A stretch of DNA of 26,339 bases from a virus, in IMG/VR virus record IMGVR_UViG_3300027759_000373, positions 1-26,339 of that record; one strand, written 5' to 3'. A model generated the notes under the pieces. It searched no databases and had not been told where the DNA came from. It saw only the letters and a program-made list of their open reading frames with translations. Every line of letters starts with the position of its first letter. Position 1 is the first letter of the stretch. The position numbers and the translations under genes were made by a program. This document shows positions 5,549 through 21,746 of this stretch, one piece after another.

Positions 5549-5803
5549 ATGTCTGTAAAAAGATTAGTCCCTTTACATGCAGTAGCCCTTGCTTCCGATC
5601 CTTCTGGATCCCGTATTGGAGATATTTACTACAATACTACAGATGAAGAATTAAGATACTATGACGGTACCGATTGGAATCCAATTGGAGCAGGAGCAAT
5701 TACAGGACTATTAGATCATATTCATACATATGATGGAGCTGTATTTTCTGTAGAAGCAACTGAAGTTCCAGCAGCTGGAACAGTTGACGGCGGTAGCGCA
5801 TAA
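5549..5803 (+). CDS. Short fibre-associated protein
   Basis: This 84-residue protein contains GSRIGDIYYNTTDEELRYYDGTDW. That is the same beta-hairpin motif found near the N-termini of the neighbouring fibres, with a short tail after it. It reads like a stand-alone N-terminal fibre adaptor. AAGGGGG lies 6 bases before the ATG. The stop overlaps the next start (TAATG), implying coupled translation with the long fibre at 5803. A joint assembly role is inference. Confidence 0.6.
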   Translation: MSVKRLVPLHAVALASDPSGSRIGDIYYNTTDEELRYYDGTDWNPIGAGAITGLLDHIHTYDGAVFSVEATEVPAAGTVDGGSA

Positions 5804-7350
5804 TGCCAGTTATAAAAATAAGAAGAGGCACAACTACACAGTGGAATGCATCTAGTAGAGTCTTGCAAGTTGGCGAACTTGGAATAGATACAACTCTAAA
5901 TAGAATAAAGGCAGGAAACGGAACTAACGTTTGGTCAGCTCTTTCCTATTTATCTTTATCTTCTGCAGAAATAGAAGAGTTATCTCAAGATGCAGTTTCA
6001 ACCGCTTTAGCGGCTGGCACACATTCAAATATAACCGTTACATATAGCGATAACGGTAATTCAATAAGTTTAGCGACTGGCCCAGATGTTATAACACAGA
6101 CCAGCCTATCAAATACTTTAACAAATGCAACAACTGGCTATGTACCAATTGCAGATGTGGGATCAGCAGATGGAGTAGCATCACTAGATTCAGGTGGAAA
6201 AGTTCCAGATTCAGAAATTCCAGCAGGTATTGCAAGACTAGCATCCCCTACATTTACAGGAACAGTTGCTGGTATAACAAAAACTATGGTTGGTCTTGGA
6301 AATGTTGATAATACTACAGATGCAAATAAACCAGTTTCAACTGCTGCACAGACGGCCCTTGACTTAAAAGCACCACTTTCTTCTCCAGGACTTACTGGAA
6401 CTCCAACTGCACCGTTAGCAGTAACTGGAACAAATACAACTCAAATTGCAACCACAAGCTTTGTACAACAAGAGCTTAATATTTTAACAACTGGTGCTCC
6501 AGCAGCACTTAACACCCTTGATGAACTTGCAGCAGCTCTTGGCGATGATGCCAACTACGCAGCTACAATTACAACAGCTTTGGGTAATAAAGCCCCACTT
6601 GCCTCACCAACATTTACAGGAACGGTAGGTGGAATTACAAAGTCAATGGTAGGACTTGGTAATGTTGACAATACAACTGATGCAAATAAGCCAGTTTCTA
6701 CAGCGACTCAAACAGCATTAGATTTAAAATTAAATTTATCAGATCCTTCGGTTGACTATTATATTACTAACTCTGGTTCTGGAGCCTATTTAGTAAACGG
6801 CGTATCTAACGGCCTTATGACATTTGAAAAAGGTAAAAAGTATCGGATTCATGTTAATGCCACAGGACACCCATTCTGGATTCAAACAGTATCTGGAGCT
6901 TATAGCTCAGGCAACGTATATTCAACTGGAATAACAAATGGTGGAGCACAAGCAGGTCATATTCTAGTAGAGCTTCCTCAAAATGCTCCAGATAGTCTTT
7001 ATTATGCTTGTGAATATCATTCATCAATGGCAGGATCAATTTCCGTACAGTCTCAGGATGTAGTGACAATAAATTCTAAATCTTCAAGCTACACTATTTT
7101 ACCAATAGACTCTAATAGAATTATTGAAATGTCTGCAGGCGGAACATTAACAATAACAGATTCTTCTTCTTTCCCTGTAGGATTTACATGCGATATTTTG
7201 CAAACAGGGGCTTCACAAGTTACAATAGCTGGAACTTCATTTACCCCTAATGCCACTCCTGGATTAAAATTACGTACTCAGTGGAGCAGCGCTACACTTA
7301 TTAAACGAGCACTTAATTCTTGGGTTGTATTGGGCGATTTGAGCGCATAA
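5803..7350 (+). CDS. Long tail fibre with Mtd-like N-terminus and cupredoxin-like domain
   Basis: This 515-residue modular fibre begins MPVIKIRRGTTTQWN...GELGIDTTLNRIKAGNG, the pattern of the major tropism determinant / hyaluronate-lyase-type N-terminal domain. A GTHSNITVTYSDN repeat unit follows. Next are two copies of a tail-fibre repeat (SPTFTGTVxGITKxMVGLGNVDNTTDANKPVS, starting near 6246 and 6603), separated by a GTNTTQIATTSFV unit. Residues about 318-418 look like a cupredoxin fold, with H356 (GHPFW), C403, H406 and M409 (CEYHSSM) in the positions of blue-copper ligands. The last 95 or so residues form a cap shared with the fibre at 22225. The two tail-fibre repeats are close in protein but differ at many third codon positions, so the duplication is old. 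Confidence 0.85.
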   Translation: MPVIKIRRGTTTQWNASSRVLQVGELGIDTTLNRIKAGNGTNVWSALSYLSLSSAEIEELSQDAVSTALAAGTHSNITVTYSDNGNSISLATGPDVITQTSLSNTLTNATTGYVPIADVGSADGVASLDSGGKVPDSEIPAGIARLASPTFTGTVAGITKTMVGLGNVDNTTDANKPVSTAAQTALDLKAPLSSPGLTGTPTAPLAVTGTNTTQIATTSFVQQELNILTTGAPAALNTLDELAAALGDDANYAATITTALGNKAPLASPTFTGTVGGITKSMVGLGNVDNTTDANKPVSTATQTALDLKLNLSDPSVDYYITNSGSGAYLVNGVSNGLMTFEKGKKYRIHVNATGHPFWIQTVSGAYSSGNVYSTGITNGGAQAGHILVELPQNAPDSLYYACEYHSSMAGSISVQSQDVVTINSKSSSYTILPIDSNRIIEMSAGGTLTITDSSSFPVGFTCDILQTGASQVTIAGTSFTPNATPGLKLRTQWSSATLIKRALNSWVVLGDLSA

Positions 7351-7351
7351 C

Positions 7352-8302
7352 ATGGCCAGAAAATTTGGCAAACATGGAAGACGTAAAAAACAAGTTCCAA
7401 ATTTATCTGGACTAACCAGATCTCAAGCACAAACAGAATTAACTGCTCGTGGATTTTCATATTCTGAGTCTTCTTCAAATACCGCTACGTCTGGTGACGA
7501 TACAAGAATAGCAAGTCAGGGTATAGCTGCAGATACCACTCTTCTGTATGGAGAATCTGTTCCTTTTGTTTATTATACATATGTAGCACCTTATTATAAC
7601 CCTTATAGTAACCCCCCACCTTACTATAACCCATATAGTAATCCACCCCCATATGATAATACTTACTATAATCCTTATAGCAATCCTCCTCCATATGATA
7701 ATCCTTATAGCAATCCTCCTCCATATGATAATACTTACTATAATCCTTATAGCAATCCTCCACCTTACTATAATCCTTATAGCAATCCTCCTAGTGGCGG
7801 CGGAGGATGCCACGTATTTGGCACACAAATATTAATGGCAAGCGGAACATATAAAAATATGGAAGATCTACAAATAGGAGATGCTATTTGTGGAGCATCT
7901 ATTCCAACTCTACCAGATGAAGAATATCCAAACTATGTAGATTTTTGGAATATATCAGAAACTTCAGGCATTGAAAAAATTAGCTCTGTTGTTACTGCTA
8001 AGATATATGACGCATTTGATTCATACTATAGATTTAACAATTTAATTAATATAACAAAAGAGCACTTAATTTTTGCTAAAATATCAGGAGAGTCTGTATG
8101 GAAATTTGTTGCCGCAGAGTATCTTAACGTAGGAGACAGTATTTTTGATGAAAATCTTCAAGAAGTAATAATTTCTTCTAAGGAGCTTATTTCAGAACAA
8201 ATACAAACTATTACAATTGATACTGAACCAAAAGACGTTTACTTTACTAAAGGAATGCTGGCTCACAACATTATTTGTGCAGATTGCGCTAGTAAACAAT
8301 GA
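7352..8302 (+). CDS. PASTA - Tyr/Pro-rich repeat - Hint domain protein
   Basis: This 316-residue protein has four parts. The N-terminus is basic (RKFGKHGRRKKQ). A PASTA-like domain follows at about 15-77 (VPNLSGLTRSQAQTELTARG, ending YGESVPFVYY). Residues 83-147 hold six NPYSNPP units. After a GGGG linker comes a Hint (Hedgehog/intein) domain at about 153-306: C153, GTQILMASG, MEDLQIGDAI, block-B TKEH (H238) and terminal H305-N306. The next residue is Ile, not Cys, Ser or Thr, so splicing is unlikely and cleavage is possible. Only 10 residues follow, including C309 and C312. PASTA domains bind peptidoglycan or muropeptides, suggesting cell-wall contact. There is one base between the previous stop and its ATG, and its stop overlaps the hydroxylase start (ATGA). 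Confidence 0.82.
   Translation: MARKFGKHGRRKKQVPNLSGLTRSQAQTELTARGFSYSESSSNTATSGDDTRIASQGIAADTTLLYGESVPFVYYTYVAPYYNPYSNPPPYYNPYSNPPPYDNTYYNPYSNPPPYDNPYSNPPPYDNTYYNPYSNPPPYYNPYSNPPSGGGGCHVFGTQILMASGTYKNMEDLQIGDAICGASIPTLPDEEYPNYVDFWNISETSGIEKISSVVTAKIYDAFDSYYRFNNLINITKEHLIFAKISGESVWKFVAAEYLNVGDSIFDENLQEVIISSKELISEQIQTITIDTEPKDVYFTKGMLAHNIICADCASKQ
7598..7792 (+). repeat. In-frame tandem repeat encoding NPYSNPP units
   Basis: There are six copies of an NPYSNPP-coding unit at residues 83, 93, 107, 117, 131 and 141 of the PASTA-Hint protein. Spacers are YY or YDNTYY types, giving alternating 10- and 14-residue periods. The DNA copies differ at third positions but stay in frame. Five units carry PPPY. 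The tract is made almost only of Tyr, Pro, Asn, Ser, Asp and Thr, suggesting an extended, polyproline-like rod. Confidence 0.9.
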
Positions 8303-8880
8303 TAATTCAATATCAAAATTTTTTACCAGAGTCTGACTATCTAACTTTAAGAAAATTTGCAGAAAAAACAAATGACTGGCAAAAAAATAATCATCCTTTA
8401 TGGAATAGGAGGGTTGTAAATACATTTAATGTAGACCCAAGAGAAAAGCAAGTTTTGATTACAATGTTAAAACTACATAATTTAACTAGAAAAGAAATTG
8501 AAAATAATTTAAATCCTGAAAAAGAATTGCATGCCGAGACCATACAATTTCAGAGAACGTTTGTTCAACCAGATCAGCCACCACATTCAGATTCGACTGG
8601 AAATAATGGAGAAGATAATGGAACCTCACAAAGAAAGTTTTCATCGTTAATCTATTTAAATGATGAATTTTCTGGCGGCAACCTGTGGTTTCCAAAGCAA
8701 GATACAGAGATTGAGCCTAAACCTAATACATTAATTGTTTTCCCAGCTACATTTGAATATATGCATGGAGTAAAAGCAGTGACAAGTGGCATCAGATATA
8801 GTATACTTGAATTCTGGACGTATGCAAAAGAACATACTTTTTGTGAAAATGTTTTAGAAAAAGAGGCAAATAATGGCTAA
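8299..8880 (+). CDS. Fe(II)/2-oxoglutarate-dependent oxygenase, prolyl-4-hydroxylase-like (copy 1)
   Basis: This 193-residue enzyme would use O2, 2-oxoglutarate and Fe(II) to hydroxylate a substrate. The metal triad is visible as H96-x-D98 (PPHSD) and H156 (MHGV). R166 (GIRYS), 10 residues on, is the 2-oxoglutarate anchor. The core strand LIYLNDEFSGGNLWFPKQ is typical of the P4H/phage hydroxylase family. The start overlaps the stop of the PASTA-Hint gene (ATGA), and its end overlaps the second hydroxylase by 8 bases, so all three are translationally coupled. Proline hydroxylation is the best guess given the upstream Pro/Tyr-rich repeat, but substrate identity is inference. Confidence 0.88.
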   Translation: MIIQYQNFLPESDYLTLRKFAEKTNDWQKNNHPLWNRRVVNTFNVDPREKQVLITMLKLHNLTRKEIENNLNPEKELHAETIQFQRTFVQPDQPPHSDSTGNNGEDNGTSQRKFSSLIYLNDEFSGGNLWFPKQDTEIEPKPNTLIVFPATFEYMHGVKAVTSGIRYSILEFWTYAKEHTFCENVLEKEANNG

Positions 8881-9490
8881 AGAAGATATAGTTGTTATAT
8901 ATGATTTTATAACAGACGAAGAATGTTTAGCAATTTTAGAATATGAAAAATATTTAACTGAAAATGATTTGTGGGATCAGGGAGATAAAAAAGGAGACCC
9001 AAAACAACACTGGGCAAAAAGATTTTTAGGTGTTCAAAATTTAACATTAAAAGAAAAAGGTTTTGGAACCCAAAAAGACCTTGAAATGATAGATCTTTGT
9101 GTTTCAATAAGAAAAAGAATTAGATCTAAAATAAAAGAAACTTGGGGACTTCAAGAAGAAATATACGCAGACTCGTTGAATTTAATTCGATGGCCACAAG
9201 CAGAACAACAACCACCTCATGCAGATTACGAAAACTTTGGCCTAGAGCCTCATGTGTGGAATTGGAGAGATATAGGAGTTGTATTATACCTAAATGACGA
9301 CTTTGTTGGCGGCCAAATATATTTCCCACAGCATGATCATTCAATAAATATTAAAAGAAAAATGTTAGCATTTTTTCCAGGGGACCAACAACATGCTCAT
9401 GGAGTTAAAAAAGTAGAAGAAGGCTGTAGATATACGGTCAATATGTTTTATACATATTTTGAGTCACACAAGGATACATTAGAGCAATGA
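8873..9490 (+). CDS. Fe(II)/2-oxoglutarate-dependent oxygenase, prolyl-4-hydroxylase-like (copy 2)
   Basis: This 205-residue enzyme is a diverged relative of the preceding one. The triad is H116-x-D118 (PPHAD) and H176 (AHGV), with anchor R186 (CRYTV); the H-to-R spacing of 10 is the same as in copy 1. VVLYLNDDFVGGQIYFPQ is the family core. The first 90 residues share little with copy 1, so the two enzymes probably differ in substrate or site. It overlaps the upstream gene by 8 bases and the downstream unknown-family gene by 4 (ATGA). No signal peptide was seen, so it acts in the host cytoplasm, where phage parts are made. Confidence 0.88.
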   Translation: MAKEDIVVIYDFITDEECLAILEYEKYLTENDLWDQGDKKGDPKQHWAKRFLGVQNLTLKEKGFGTQKDLEMIDLCVSIRKRIRSKIKETWGLQEEIYADSLNLIRWPQAEQQPPHADYENFGLEPHVWNWRDIGVVLYLNDDFVGGQIYFPQHDHSINIKRKMLAFFPGDQQHAHGVKKVEEGCRYTVNMFYTYFESHKDTLEQ

Positions 9491-10224
9491 TATTTAAAAA
9501 TAAAACGATAGAAAATCAAATAGAATTTTATTCTTGGTCTAATCAAGCCGAAGAATTAACCACAATGCCAGTTCCAGCAAAACTACATATATCTGAAATG
9601 TGGAAAGCAAAAGAAAGATATTATGGAAATAAAGAAAAAGAATTAGACCTTAGAATTTCTGGCGACAAAGGAAATGGTGTTCCTAATCTAGGATTAAAAC
9701 ATTGCATGCCATATTTTGATGCAATGACTGCTGGATATTTACAATTGCTTCATTGTGATCTTCAGGTTACTCAAGTAAACGGGCAACCAGAAATTAAATG
9801 GAGATCGTCTTTATCTCCGCTTCAGGTTAGACAAATAGAAGAAATAGATTCCCCTGACGGGTATAGCCCAAAGCACTACGCTTGGCTAATGCAATGGGGA
9901 TTAAAAACTCCCGAAGGATGGTCTTGTTTAATTACACAACCAATAAATAGACCAGAGTCTCCTTTCATATGCACTTCTGGATTTATGGATACAGATAAAT
10001 ATCATGCTCCAGGAAATATTAGCTTTCATGTTAAAGAAGGGTTTGAGGGTATAGTCCCAGCTGGTACTCCAATATTTCAAATTATTCCAATTAAAAGAGA
10101 ACCCTGGGTATCTATAAAAAATAATAATTTACGAGAAGAAGGACGATTTGATCAAGAAAGAAAGAAAAATGTTTTTTCTGGGTATTATAAAAAAAATCGC
10201 TGGCAAAAAAAGGAGTACGCATAA
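9487..10224 (+). CDS. Unknown-family protein, copy A (paralogue of the 19017-19736 gene)
   Basis: This 245-residue soluble protein shares clear blocks with the minus-strand gene at 19017-19736: CMPYFDAMTAGYLQ against CMPFLDAFTSGYIQ, a PEGWSCLITQPINRPESPF block against PEGYSVLFTHPLNRFDLPF, and AGTPIFQIIPIKREPW against AGTPMYQIIPIKRESW. From memory it may be the DUF6065 family; this was not checked. The Cys-Met-Pro and Pro-Ile-Lys-Arg-Glu motifs are candidate functional sites. It is coupled to the second hydroxylase (ATGA overlap), and its stop overlaps the next start (TAATG). A role as partner or scaffold of the oxidative enzymes is only suggested by context. Confidence 0.8.
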   Translation: MIFKNKTIENQIEFYSWSNQAEELTTMPVPAKLHISEMWKAKERYYGNKEKELDLRISGDKGNGVPNLGLKHCMPYFDAMTAGYLQLLHCDLQVTQVNGQPEIKWRSSLSPLQVRQIEEIDSPDGYSPKHYAWLMQWGLKTPEGWSCLITQPINRPESPFICTSGFMDTDKYHAPGNISFHVKEGFEGIVPAGTPIFQIIPIKREPWVSIKNNNLREEGRFDQERKKNVFSGYYKKNRWQKKEYA

Positions 10225-10625
10225 TGCATGATTCAAGTCTAACTAGATGGAAAAAACAAGCCATATTTGGCTTTGCTGGAACAAATTTAAAAATTGAGAC
10301 AATTAAAAATGCGGCAGGCAGATATCAAACAGCGATATTTGAGACAGATGAAATTGGCAGGTTAAGAGACCTAGCTATTAAGTTTTCTAAATATCATTCT
10401 TCAGAAGAAGATGCTTCGACTTTCTATGAATCATTGGTAAAAAACTTTATTGCAATACAGGAAAACCCTTCTTACCATTCAATAGAAGATGTTTATGTTA
10501 AGATAGAATCAGCCAGCCTTATACCTAATCATGACGGTCCTAGAAAGTTTGACTTTGTTAGAGTTCCCGCAGGAAACACAATAGTTGGACATAACATTAA
10601 TGTAGAGGAAAATGAGCGAGGATAG
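10224..10625 (+). CDS. Conserved-looking protein of unknown function
   Basis: This 133-residue protein is not recognised. It is soluble and of mixed alpha/beta character: an N-terminal SLTRWKKQAIFGFAGTNLK segment, a helical middle with acidic patches (SSEEDASTFYESLVKNFIAIQ), and a C-terminal strand-rich part ending in GHNINVEENERG. It is coupled to the gene before it (TAATG) and overlaps the next gene by 14 bases, so it belongs to the same operon as the two hydroxylases. Confidence 0.7.
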   Translation: MHDSSLTRWKKQAIFGFAGTNLKIETIKNAAGRYQTAIFETDEIGRLRDLAIKFSKYHSSEEDASTFYESLVKNFIAIQENPSYHSIEDVYVKIESASLIPNHDGPRKFDFVRVPAGNTIVGHNINVEENERG

Positions 10626-10818
10626 GGCGGCAAAGCCCTGGGACTTTCTAAACAAAAATATAGGAAGGGTAGAGCAGGATATTGCAGAAGATAGAATGGA
10701 TGTCTGCAGATCTTGTGAGCATTTCTTAAAAATGACGGGTCAATGCAAAAAATGTGGGTGTATTATGGCTATAAAAAGTAAGCTGCCTAATGCTACATGC
10801 CCAATCGGTAAGTGGTAA
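10612..10818 (+). CDS. Cys-rich mini-protein, likely zinc-binding
   Basis: This 68-residue protein has C32-x2-C35, C45-x2-C48, C50 and C63. The arrangement CRSCEHFLKMTGQCKKCGC...CPIGKW is seen in small phage proteins of cyanophage type. Four of the cysteines could hold a zinc ion as a treble-clef or ribbon. The N-terminal 30 residues are charged and probably helical. It overlaps the preceding gene by 14 bases and closes the hydroxylase operon. Role unknown: it could be a nucleic-acid- or protein-binding adaptor. Confidence 0.75.
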   Translation: MSEDRAAKPWDFLNKNIGRVEQDIAEDRMDVCRSCEHFLKMTGQCKKCGCIMAIKSKLPNATCPIGKW

Positions 10819-19016: not shown

Positions 19017-19736
19017 TTAAATAAATTCTTTTCTTTTCCAAAAATAATTTTTATACCCATCATAGATATACTTTCTAATAGAATGTTTTTTCTTCATGAG
19101 TAAATCTGGATCATATTCATTTACACAAGACTTCCAAGATTCACGCTTTATAGGAATTATTTGATACATTGGGGTTCCAGCAGGAATAATTTTACCATTA
19201 AATTCCTTTTTTAAGAAAAATGGAAATGCTCCAGATATTTCATGGCTGTAAACATCACTATCTACAATTCCAGACAAAGAAGTAAACGGAAGGTCAAATC
19301 TATTTAACGGATGGGTAAATAACACAGAGTATCCTTCAGGCATAATTGGAACCCAATGTTGAAGCCATATAAACTCTATAGGGAAATATTCATTACTAAT
19401 TTCTAATGTAGTTGGTTTCATTCTATATGAAGCAATCTCAGGTCCCGTAGGAAATGCTATATTAACTTTATAGTTCCCATCAGAATCCTCGTCTACTTTT
19501 ATATATATATCAGTCCATGTTTCTTGTATATATCCAGAAGTAAACGCATCTAAAAAAGGCATGCACATTTTTATATTGGTATTGTTCTGAACTCCCTCGC
19601 TATTAAATTCAGGCTTTTCACGATCCACTGGTTTTACTTTTTTAAACCAGTCAGGAATATATTTTTTGGCTGATTGAGGGGGCAAAGAAGTTAAGGCGCA
19701 TTCCTTGCTAGAAGGTTGATACTGTATATTTTTCAT
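19017..19736 (-). CDS. Unknown-family protein, copy B (paralogue of the 9487-10224 gene)
   Basis: This 239-residue soluble protein is a diverged homologue of the gene at 9487 (shared blocks CMPFLDAFTSGYIQ, the PEGYSVLFTHPLNRFDLPF block and AGTPMYQIIPIKRESW). It is one of only two minus-strand genes in the window. It lies convergent to the glycine-rich adhesin (two bases between the stops) and divergent to the 19790 gene. A TATAAT extended -10 (complement of 19760-19768) stands 24 bases before the ATG; the ribosome-binding site is weak. Copy A sits with the hydroxylases and copy B beside the halogenase operon. Function unknown. Confidence 0.82.
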   Translation of the reverse strand: MKNIQYQPSSKECALTSLPPQSAKKYIPDWFKKVKPVDREKPEFNSEGVQNNTNIKMCMPFLDAFTSGYIQETWTDIYIKVDEDSDGNYKVNIAFPTGPEIASYRMKPTTLEISNEYFPIEFIWLQHWVPIMPEGYSVLFTHPLNRFDLPFTSLSGIVDSDVYSHEISGAFPFFLKKEFNGKIIPAGTPMYQIIPIKRESWKSCVNEYDPDLLMKKKHSIRKYIYDGYKNYFWKRKEFI

Positions 19737-19789: not shown

Positions 19790-20161
19790 GTGCCTATTTT
19801 TAGAACTACATATAATATATTAAAAGATCCATCACAGGGAGATATCTTTGACGAAAACTGGATGAATTTTGATACTATTCAAACACCTCCTAAGAGAAAT
19901 TGGGACTATGCTAGAGAAATGCAAATAGAGGATGTTGACGTATGGGAAGTTATTTCTGAAGGAGGCAAAGGAATTGGAATATATGCGTCCTGGTCTCCAT
20001 ATGCAGAGTTTTATATGGTTACAAATGGTTTAGACAGAATAGAAACTTTTTATGGAGTAGGAGCACAAAAAAGATTAAAGAGATACCTAGATAGCCTAGG
20101 CATTCGTTACCCCCAAAATCCAATATGGGTAGAGCCAGAGGAAATGTATTTATATGAATAA
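19790..20161 (+). CDS. Small unknown protein, first gene of the halogenase operon (GTG start, leaderless)
   Basis: This 123-residue protein is not recognised. It is rich in Trp, Tyr and acidic residues (DVDVWEVISEGGKGIGIYAS, then WSPYAEFYMVTNG), and the middle looks beta-rich. The C-terminus has a positive helix (GAQKRLKRYLDSLGI) and an acidic tail. The GTG at 19790 is taken as start because a -10 box stands at the leaderless distance and no ribosome-binding site is present. Its end overlaps the halogenase start by 8 bases, so the two are co-translated. A role as partner of the halogenase is possible. Confidence 0.72.
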   Translation: MPIFRTTYNILKDPSQGDIFDENWMNFDTIQTPPKRNWDYAREMQIEDVDVWEVISEGGKGIGIYASWSPYAEFYMVTNGLDRIETFYGVGAQKRLKRYLDSLGIRYPQNPIWVEPEEMYLYE

Positions 20162-21746
20162 TAAAATAGATAAAATTGTAATTATAGGTGGAGGATCAGC
20201 AGGATGGATGGTTGCCTCTACATTAATAAAGTTTTTCCCAGAAAAAGATATAACCCTTGTTGCATCTGAGTCAATACCAACAGTTGGCGTAGGAGAAAGT
20301 ACACTAGCAGACCTAAATGCATGGCTTCATCTTTTAGACATTAAGGTATCTGACTTTTTATCAGAAGTCGATGGAACTTTTAAAATGGGCATTGGGTTTA
20401 CTGATTTTTATAATAAAGATTCGGGCACGATATTCTATCCATTTGGAAGACCAGACACCGCCGCCTCATTGTTTGGCCTGACAGACTGGCATATTAGAAA
20501 AGCTCAAGACGATTCAATTGATTCAACAGATTATGTAAATACGCATTTCCCACTAATGAGTTTAATTAATAGCAATAAGATGCTATCTGAAAATACTGAA
20601 GAATTTCTTCCAACAGTAAAATCTAGGGACATTGGCTATCAAGTAGATGCCTCAAAGTTTGGATGGTATCTAAGAACAAAATATGCAATGCCAAAAGGCG
20701 TAAAGTTTATGGATAATGTTGTTACAAAAGTTAATGTAGGAGAAGATGGAGTTTCATCAATCGACCTAGATAACGGAAATAATATCACAGCCGATTTATT
20801 TGTAGATTGCAGCGGATTCAAGAGTCTGCTTTTAGGTGAAGCTTTAAACGCAGAATTTGTTTCTACAAAACATAGACTGCCTAATAATAAAGCCTGGGCT
20901 TCTCCAGTTGCATATACTGATAAAGAAAAAGAGCTTGAGTTATTTACAAACTGTACAGCGATAGAAAACGGCTGGGTTTGGAATACCCCTTTATGGTCCA
21001 GAATAGGATCTGGATATGTTTACTCTGATGAATTTGTTGATGATGATACAGCATTGCAAGAATTTAAATCCCACCTAGATTCTAAAAAAATGAAAGTCTA
21101 TAACCCAAACAGGTCTAAGGACATGGAATTTAGACAGGTGCATATAAGAAACGGATACTATAAAAAAACATGGATAAAAAATACTGTTGCCATAGGTTTA
21201 GCATCAGGGTTTTTAGAGCCGTTAGAAAGCACGGGGCTATGGTTTGTTCATCAACACGCAATAAATATTGTAGATATATTGAAAAGAAAATATGTAACTC
21301 AATTTGATAAAGATCTATATAACACTCGCACCAATAAAGACTATAAGATTATGATGGATTTTGTGGCCCTTCATTACGCATTCAGCAATAGGGCTGATAC
21401 GCCGTACTGGAAATCTATATCTTCTAAAGTTTTTTCAGAAGAAATGATGGAGAATTTACCAAACGGGATAGACCCAGATGGATTTGCTGGATTTTCTCAA
21501 TCTTTTAATATGGGAAGAGAATATACTGGATACGGGATCACTTCTGTTGCTGTTGGTCTCGGATACCATTTATTTGAAAAACATAATGTAGATAGAAACA
21601 TTTTTTATGGACAACAAGATTTTGCAGAAGGTCTTTCTAATAGCTTTAGCTATATGGATGCCAGAAAAGAAAAATGGAATCATGCTGCAAAATTTCAGCC
21701 AACACACTATCAATACTTAAAGGAGAATCACTATAATGAAATTTAG
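20154..21746 (+). CDS. Flavin-dependent tryptophan-halogenase-family enzyme
   Basis: This 530-residue protein has the family hallmarks in order: FAD-binding GGGSAGW (12-18), GVGEST (45-50), the catalytic lysine in TFKMG (K77, equal to K79 of PrnA/RebH), W274-V-W276-N-T278-P279 (the WxWxIP motif, here with Thr for Ile) and FLEPLESTG (353-361). Such enzymes use FADH2, O2 and halide to make a hypohalous-acid-like species that halogenates aromatic rings. A viral member, VirX1 of cyanophage Syn10, is known. It overlaps both neighbours (8 and 11 bases). No flavin reductase gene is in the window, so FADH2 would come from the host or from elsewhere in the genome. The substrate, free or in a protein, is not readable. 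Confidence 0.88.
   Translation: MNNKIDKIVIIGGGSAGWMVASTLIKFFPEKDITLVASESIPTVGVGESTLADLNAWLHLLDIKVSDFLSEVDGTFKMGIGFTDFYNKDSGTIFYPFGRPDTAASLFGLTDWHIRKAQDDSIDSTDYVNTHFPLMSLINSNKMLSENTEEFLPTVKSRDIGYQVDASKFGWYLRTKYAMPKGVKFMDNVVTKVNVGEDGVSSIDLDNGNNITADLFVDCSGFKSLLLGEALNAEFVSTKHRLPNNKAWASPVAYTDKEKELELFTNCTAIENGWVWNTPLWSRIGSGYVYSDEFVDDDTALQEFKSHLDSKKMKVYNPNRSKDMEFRQVHIRNGYYKKTWIKNTVAIGLASGFLEPLESTGLWFVHQHAINIVDILKRKYVTQFDKDLYNTRTNKDYKIMMDFVALHYAFSNRADTPYWKSISSKVFSEEMMENLPNGIDPDGFAGFSQSFNMGREYTGYGITSVAVGLGYHLFEKHNVDRNIFYGQQDFAEGLSNSFSYMDARKEKWNHAAKFQPTHYQYLKENHYNEI

Follow-up and report, generated by a model that had tools for sequence, protein, structure and literature searches.

Proline-rich rod genes adjoin 2OG-Fe(II) oxygenase arrays in probable freshwater actinophages: a candidate cassette for protein prolyl hydroxylation

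The window, i.e. the whole stretch of DNA analysed here, is a 26.3-kb virus record that carries a class II ribonucleotide reductase (RNR) gene and, on one strand, a series of tail-fibre-like genes. Within it, the gene at 7352..8302 (+) encodes a protein of 316 aa with a basic N-terminus, a PASTA domain, a rod rich in Tyr, Asn and Pro, and a Hint-like C-terminal domain. The PASTA domain (aa 14-70; 7391..7561, +) matched Pfam PF03793 with an E-value of 2.1e-6 and 28.1 bits, above the cut-off of 23.2. The Pro-rich rod (7583..7792, +), which is the proposed hydroxylation substrate, consists of 30- and 42-nt DNA repeats and holds six NPYSNPP units starting at aa 83, 93, 107, 117, 131 and 141, five of which run on into PPPY. 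The Hint-like domain (7808..8299, +) resembles Hint/intein autoprocessing domains in having Cys1 and a terminal His-Asn. It differs from inteins in that the terminal Asn is followed by Ile, the +1 Cys or Ser that serves as splicing nucleophile being absent, and in its weak Pfam matches (E 1e-3 to 3e-3), which lay under the curated cut-offs for the Hint and intein profiles (19.6 against 32.1 bits and 17.5 against 29.7 bits). PHROG 38766, annotated as 'virion structural', matched aa 149-308 of the same protein with an E-value of 3e-12.

Two genes encoding 2OG-Fe(II) oxygenases follow directly. OX1 (8299..8880, +; 193 aa) shares an ATGA overlap with the rod gene, and OX2 (8873..9490, +; 205 aa) overlaps OX1 by 8 bases; their PF13640 matches (E 4.9e-12 and 47.1 bits for OX1, E 4.2e-9 and 37.7 bits for OX2) exceed the curated cut-off of 27. 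The earlier note on this DNA had read the layout at 7352-9490 correctly, including the six NPYSNPP units, most of them with PPPY, the ATGA and 8-base overlaps and the complete HxD...H...R sites. The coordinates it gave for the cassette were right but stopped short, because the run of overlapping genes continues past 9490 to 10818. A phrog_7084 protein gene (9487..10224, +), probably a cassette partner and distant kin of DUF6065, has an ATGA overlap with OX2. It is joined by overlap to a gene for a 133-aa protein that accompanies OX2 in PASTA-rod phages (10224..10625, +), and the last member of the run, overlapping the preceding gene, encodes a small Cys-rich, zinc-ribbon-like protein (10612..10818, +). 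Upstream of the rod gene lies a tail-fibre-like gene with an Mtd_N domain (5803..7350, +; PF18454, E 1.9e-11) and matches to tail-fibre PHROGs; judged by this neighbour, the cassette belongs to the predicted tail/host-recognition region.

In relatives of the rod protein the order 'PASTA then Pro-rich rod' was kept and the remainder was variable. Fibronectin III (FN3) replaces PASTA as the head in L020-L022, where the NPP rod and both oxygenases are still present, and phages with FFPP rods also carry FN3 instead of PASTA. The end of the protein may be an intact Hint-like domain, a degenerate one, a Cys-rich replacement or none. Cys1 of the Hint-like domain was lost in L008, L009b, L011, L016 and L049, most of which had also lost the terminal His-Asn, although their sequence still looked like the fold; these ends appear to be degenerate autoprocessing domains kept on virion-type proteins. 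Hint autoprocessing was rejected as the core function, since many relatives lack the domain or have it in degenerate form.

The repeat units of relatives include NPYSNPPPYDN and NPPVYSNPPVYDN as well as NPPPY and NPPVY types, and more distant rods are built of NPGF, INEPV, HAPY, PSFPPPFPP or FTPFSF. Pro is the sole residue common to all rods. Those linked to oxygenase arrays have PPx[FY] in common, with F at 607 of 629 PPx positions in the FFPP type and Y in the NPP type. Copy number and unit of the rod also differ among close relatives (window 7590-7805; L003, L004, L005 and L056). This variation in the 30/42-nt DNA repeats suggests that repeat length may evolve by recombination.

Among isolates, the reductase of the window is closest to those of Streptomyces phages of ~130 kb, with 66% identity. 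WhiB, which marks Actinobacteria and the phages that infect them (PMC10202952), was found in six of the 14 records related to the window that were tested, comprising all four of at least 100 kb and two shorter ones. Since the reductase is Streptomyces-phage-like and WhiB occurs in related contigs, the group most likely consists of freshwater actinophages. Phages of freshwater Actinobacteria are now culturable (PMC10202952). Among isolate phages none with the same cassette was found, OX1 and OX2 matching only distant cyanophage or marine oxygenases, and the one match of the FFPP-type OX2 was to a marine single-cell virus, with 24% identity. The sole match among bacterial genomes was a contig of 5.3 kb from a Chitinophagaceae MAG (L211, JAFMJX010000128.1). 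This contig holds a phage FN3-FFPP rod with an oxygenase array and was probably mis-binned.

The catalytic residues of OX1 (H96/D98/H156/R166) and of OX2 (H116/D118/H176/R186), an iron triad with the basic residue that serves 2OG, were invariant across the aligned relatives. Compared with L003, dN/dS was ~0.12 for OX1 and ~0.04 for both OX2 and the phrog_7084 gene; all three are thus working genes under purifying selection. When profiles were searched against the PDB, human prolyl 3-hydroxylase 1 (P3H1, leprecan) was the best match of both enzymes (5.6e-10 for OX2 and 4.5e-13 for OX1), and further matches were to Bacillus anthracis P4H, EGLN1 (PHD2) and an algal P4H. The predicted models had a pLDDT of 92.5 for OX1, with P3H1 and the chlorovirus enzyme vCPH as best Foldseek fold matches, and of 90.1 for OX2, with P3H1, B. 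anthracis P4H and vCPH; apart from vCPH, Foldseek retrieved the enzymes that the profiles had found. OX1 and OX2 thus resemble protein prolyl hydroxylases. Because identities to characterised enzymes, P3H1 among them, are only ~20% and the solved structures of the superfamily in the PDB are rich in prolyl hydroxylases, which biases the nearest-structure evidence, this likeness supports the predicted reaction without proving it. In contrast to P3H1, OX1 and OX2 are single-domain proteins, and no CRTAP/cyclophilin-type partner was recognised for them. B. anthracis P4H (PDB 3itq, 5hv0, 5v7y), the second-best structural match of OX2, is a small bacterial enzyme of the same fold, but it is a single enzyme with no linkage to a phage rod.

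In a maximum-likelihood tree, OX2 of the window grouped (support 96/94) with an oxygenase of every FFPP-type array examined, whereas OX1 and the other array members lay in other groups. The OX2 type is the enzyme that most constantly accompanies the rods.

The association between rods and oxygenases was evaluated from three starting points. Records with NPP-type rods (n=25) were reached via the repeat protein or repeat DNA patterns. Related phages in which the repeat occurs without an oxygenase as often as with one, which the earlier note had named as the case against its proposal, were looked for and not found: PF13640 genes were carried by 23 of the 25 records, and the other two (G012 and G014) are truncated, ending soon after the rod. 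The degenerate NPPPY and NPPxYxNPP scans also picked up unrelated contigs as chance matches (e.g. L047); used as controls, 2 of 19 such contigs carried a PF13640 gene.

As a neutral anchor, 49 records were fetched by ribonucleotide reductase. Many of them had oxygenase arrays, with as many as 14 PF13640 genes in a record. Among those of at least 25 kb, all 13 with an array had a Pro-rich rod, which in 12 of the 13 lay at most 841 bp upstream of the array. Over all RNR-anchored records the association gave a Fisher p of 0.0015, a value that is indicative only as the contigs are related. Most rod-only records of this set end shortly after the rod. The rod of G062 (PPPPP/PPADPP) is a real counter-example, with no PF13640 match in 20.6 kb. 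The nearest oxygenases to the FTPFGF rod of G049 are 5.5 kb downstream, the records with INEPV (G059) and NPGF (G044) rods have one oxygenase each, which is not of the OX2 type or is incomplete, and the record with the HAPY rod (G091) is truncated. Oxygenase-free relatives (18 stretches, 345 kb, 426 genes) contained a single rod-like protein, which was of another type (EPPAVEPPA).

The third set comprised 69 further loci fetched with a profile of the OX2-type enzyme (A1), which is blind to rods. At all 51 informative loci a Pro-rich rod gene adjoined the oxygenase array, with a median gap of 67 bp and no exceptions; the remaining 18 were uninformative, having less than 2.5 kb of upstream sequence in the record. 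The OX2-type enzymes of the rod-positive loci formed 35 clusters at 90% identity and 20 at 80%. Their rods were mostly of PPGFFA, PPLFFS or FFPP repeats and typically stood on two FN3-like domains, some having a Hint-like end. Chance co-occurrence of rod and oxygenases was rejected by the NPP-rod, RNR-anchored and OX2-profile tests, which are not independent of one another since the contigs are related and in which the thresholds of the rod detector were set after seeing examples.

Rod heads, ends and repeat units swap while the OX2-type enzyme stays. Such constancy of the rod as the immediate neighbour, at 51 of 51 loci, makes it unlikely in our judgement that the linkage exists without a substrate relation, as it would if the tail-fibre region were a cargo hotspot in which rods and oxygenases are co-inherited and the oxygenases act elsewhere, on another fibre, on host proteins or on cell-surface components. 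Collagen-like fibre genes, which were considered as the true array partner, also speak against such a hotspot: they were rejected because they showed no association with arrays (16 of 45 array loci versus 6 of 18 oxygenase-free loci). The arrays do, however, lie among tail genes of related contigs, and cyanophage arrays adjoin fibres without such rods. Moreover, the phrog_7084 family was present at 51 of 69 array loci versus 1 of 18 oxygenase-free loci, and DUF6065 genes at 66 of 69 versus 0 of 18 (e.g. L171:7237-7947, L177:5550-7026). Since these genes are equally linked, more than linkage is needed to single out the rod.

The phrog_7084 and DUF6065 families are distantly related to each other (hhalign E 3e-4), and the phrog_7084 profile gave no significant match in the PDB. 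One may speculate that these constant partners act as chaperones or modify the product further. Relatives of phrog_7084 with ~32% identity were also seen in haloarchaeal tailed viruses such as HF2 (phage records H132-H146). The 133-aa protein lies next to OX2 in L003-L009, L011, L016, L017 and L020-L022 and was absent from FFPP arrays. Exceptionally long 2OG-oxygenase arrays were observed in these probable freshwater actinophages (L220-L288, G053, G055, G070, G073 and G080), the maxima being 14 PF13640 genes for a single record (G053) and some ten for a single array (L267).

Regarding the residue, the earlier note had thought of Tyr as well as Pro and of an adhesive of the mussel-foot kind. 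An adhesive role remains conjectural. Tyr hydroxylation finds no support as a general rule, and Tyr was rejected as the common target, because Phe takes the place of Tyr in most rods and the same oxygenase lineage serves Phe-rich, nearly Tyr-free rods (PPGFFAPPGFFA, FFPPFFPP). Pro is more likely than Tyr to be the target residue in the rods. It is quite improbable that the main target in the rod is instead an aromatic residue (Tyr to a DOPA-like product, or Phe) or Asn/Asp: FFPP-type rods have Phe for Tyr and little Asn, yet the OX2 lineage is common to both rod types, and the nearest structures are all prolyl hydroxylases. Oxygenases of the PF13640 family typically hydroxylate aliphatic C-H bonds, which also counts against an aromatic target. 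In favour of such a target, the PPx[FY] rods place aromatic residues with the same regularity as Pro, Tyr and Asn abound in rods of the NPP type, several specificities could be accommodated in long arrays, and the window also holds a tryptophan-halogenase-like gene.

2OG-Fe(II) oxygenases are numerous in phages, notably aquatic ones; published accounts describe their function as uninvestigated, and the usual guess is metabolism or DNA repair (PMC3037559, PMC9602691). Cyanophages carry 1-24 of these enzymes, S-SCSM1 having 24 (PMC3037559, PMC9602691). The cyanophage homologues have been read as acting in DNA repair or 2OG modulation (PMC3037559), and a role in host metabolism has been assumed for them (PMC9602691). 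That the enzymes described here are likewise metabolic or DNA/RNA-directed auxiliary enzymes, drawing down 2OG or demethylating nucleic acids, we regard as very unlikely, as they had no AlkB-type best match, their Pfam and PDB matches being PF13640 with prolyl hydroxylases, and they are strictly paired with a gene of structural type. The strict pairing with an adjacent Pro-rich rod offers a concrete, testable target for unexplained phage oxygenases.

On these grounds the arrays seem rather probably to be a cassette for post-translational Pro hydroxylation of the adjacent phage rod protein. The substrate link that had been proposed is well supported by comparison, with the pairing at 51 of 51 informative loci, and fits the P3H/P4H-like profiles and folds; it is still something that we infer, as are Pro as the residue, the location in the virion and the biological effect. 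The product of 7352-8302 would combine an adhesion-type head (PASTA) with a proline-rich rod and a Hint-like end, and the overlapping genes, which are probably translationally coupled, would co-produce it with OX1 and OX2. While the virion is being assembled, or earlier, the two enzymes would oxidise the prolines of the PPx[FY] repeats, and hydroxylation might stiffen the polyproline-type rod and/or alter its receptor- or protease-facing surface. OX2 would be the constant enzyme, and OX1 and the extra enzymes of arrays of up to about ten could modify other positions or residues, long arrays giving several site specificities. We suggest only tentatively a wider picture: a Pro-rich tail rod that is modular, evolves fast and is hydroxylated by 2 to ~10 enzymes of differing site preference would be widespread in freshwater actinophages. 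Perhaps a hydroxyproline-rich virion rod is varied combinatorially, leading to changed receptor binding or to escape from host recognition.

Animal and plant P4Hs likewise act on repeated Pro-rich substrates (collagen and extensin). The likeness of the phage rods is of the extensin type; they have PPx[FY] and not Gly-X-Y as in collagen. Viral prolyl hydroxylation is already known: vCPH (PDB 5c5t, 5c5u), whose fold is among the closest to OX1 and OX2, is a protein prolyl hydroxylase of a chlorovirus. Chloroviruses are eukaryotic viruses with one such enzyme, whereas 2 to ~10 stand beside a dedicated rod gene in the actinophages, where the system is known from genes alone. To our knowledge, no rod-plus-array cassette is known in chloroviruses. 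A prolyl 4-hydroxylase gene is known from chlorovirus PBCV-1 (Eriksson et al. 1999, cited in PMC7019647), and an unpublished amino-acid analysis found no hydroxyproline in its particles (note cited in PMC7019647), which is a warning against equating the gene with modification of the virion. Our literature search found no relevant paper on phage prolyl hydroxylation and none that describes phage oxygenase arrays paired with Pro-rich rods. The pairing is potentially a widespread system. If the proposal is true, bacteriophages make hydroxyproline-rich proteins as plants, animals and chloroviruses do, compact prolyl hydroxylases with sequence specificity for PPx[FY] repeats are open to study and biotechnology, and virion protein hydroxylation suggests itself as a general role for unexplained phage 2OG oxygenases.

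T4-like cyanophages, the isolates whose enzymes are closest to OX1 and OX2, have tandem or clustered PF13640 genes, some of them beside tail-fibre genes. They are of another family and host, and the neighbours of their arrays are Gly-rich or Arg/Gln/Pro-rich and not PPx[FY] rods. In Synechococcus phage S-SCSM1 (L210:1552-2817), five 2OG oxygenases flank a short tail fibre that carries long RQPRxFRxP repeats of Arg, Gln, Pro and Phe, a possible cyanophage parallel to the rod cassette.

In the window, a tryptophan-halogenase-like flavoenzyme (PF04820, E 1.9e-102) is encoded amid tail-fibre genes at 20154-21746 (+), and Tyr-rich rods are one conceivable target for it; prnA-type genes have been listed for cyanophages (PMC3037559). 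A relative of the phrog_7084 gene of the cassette lies on the opposite strand at 19017-19736 (-), just before the halogenase region.
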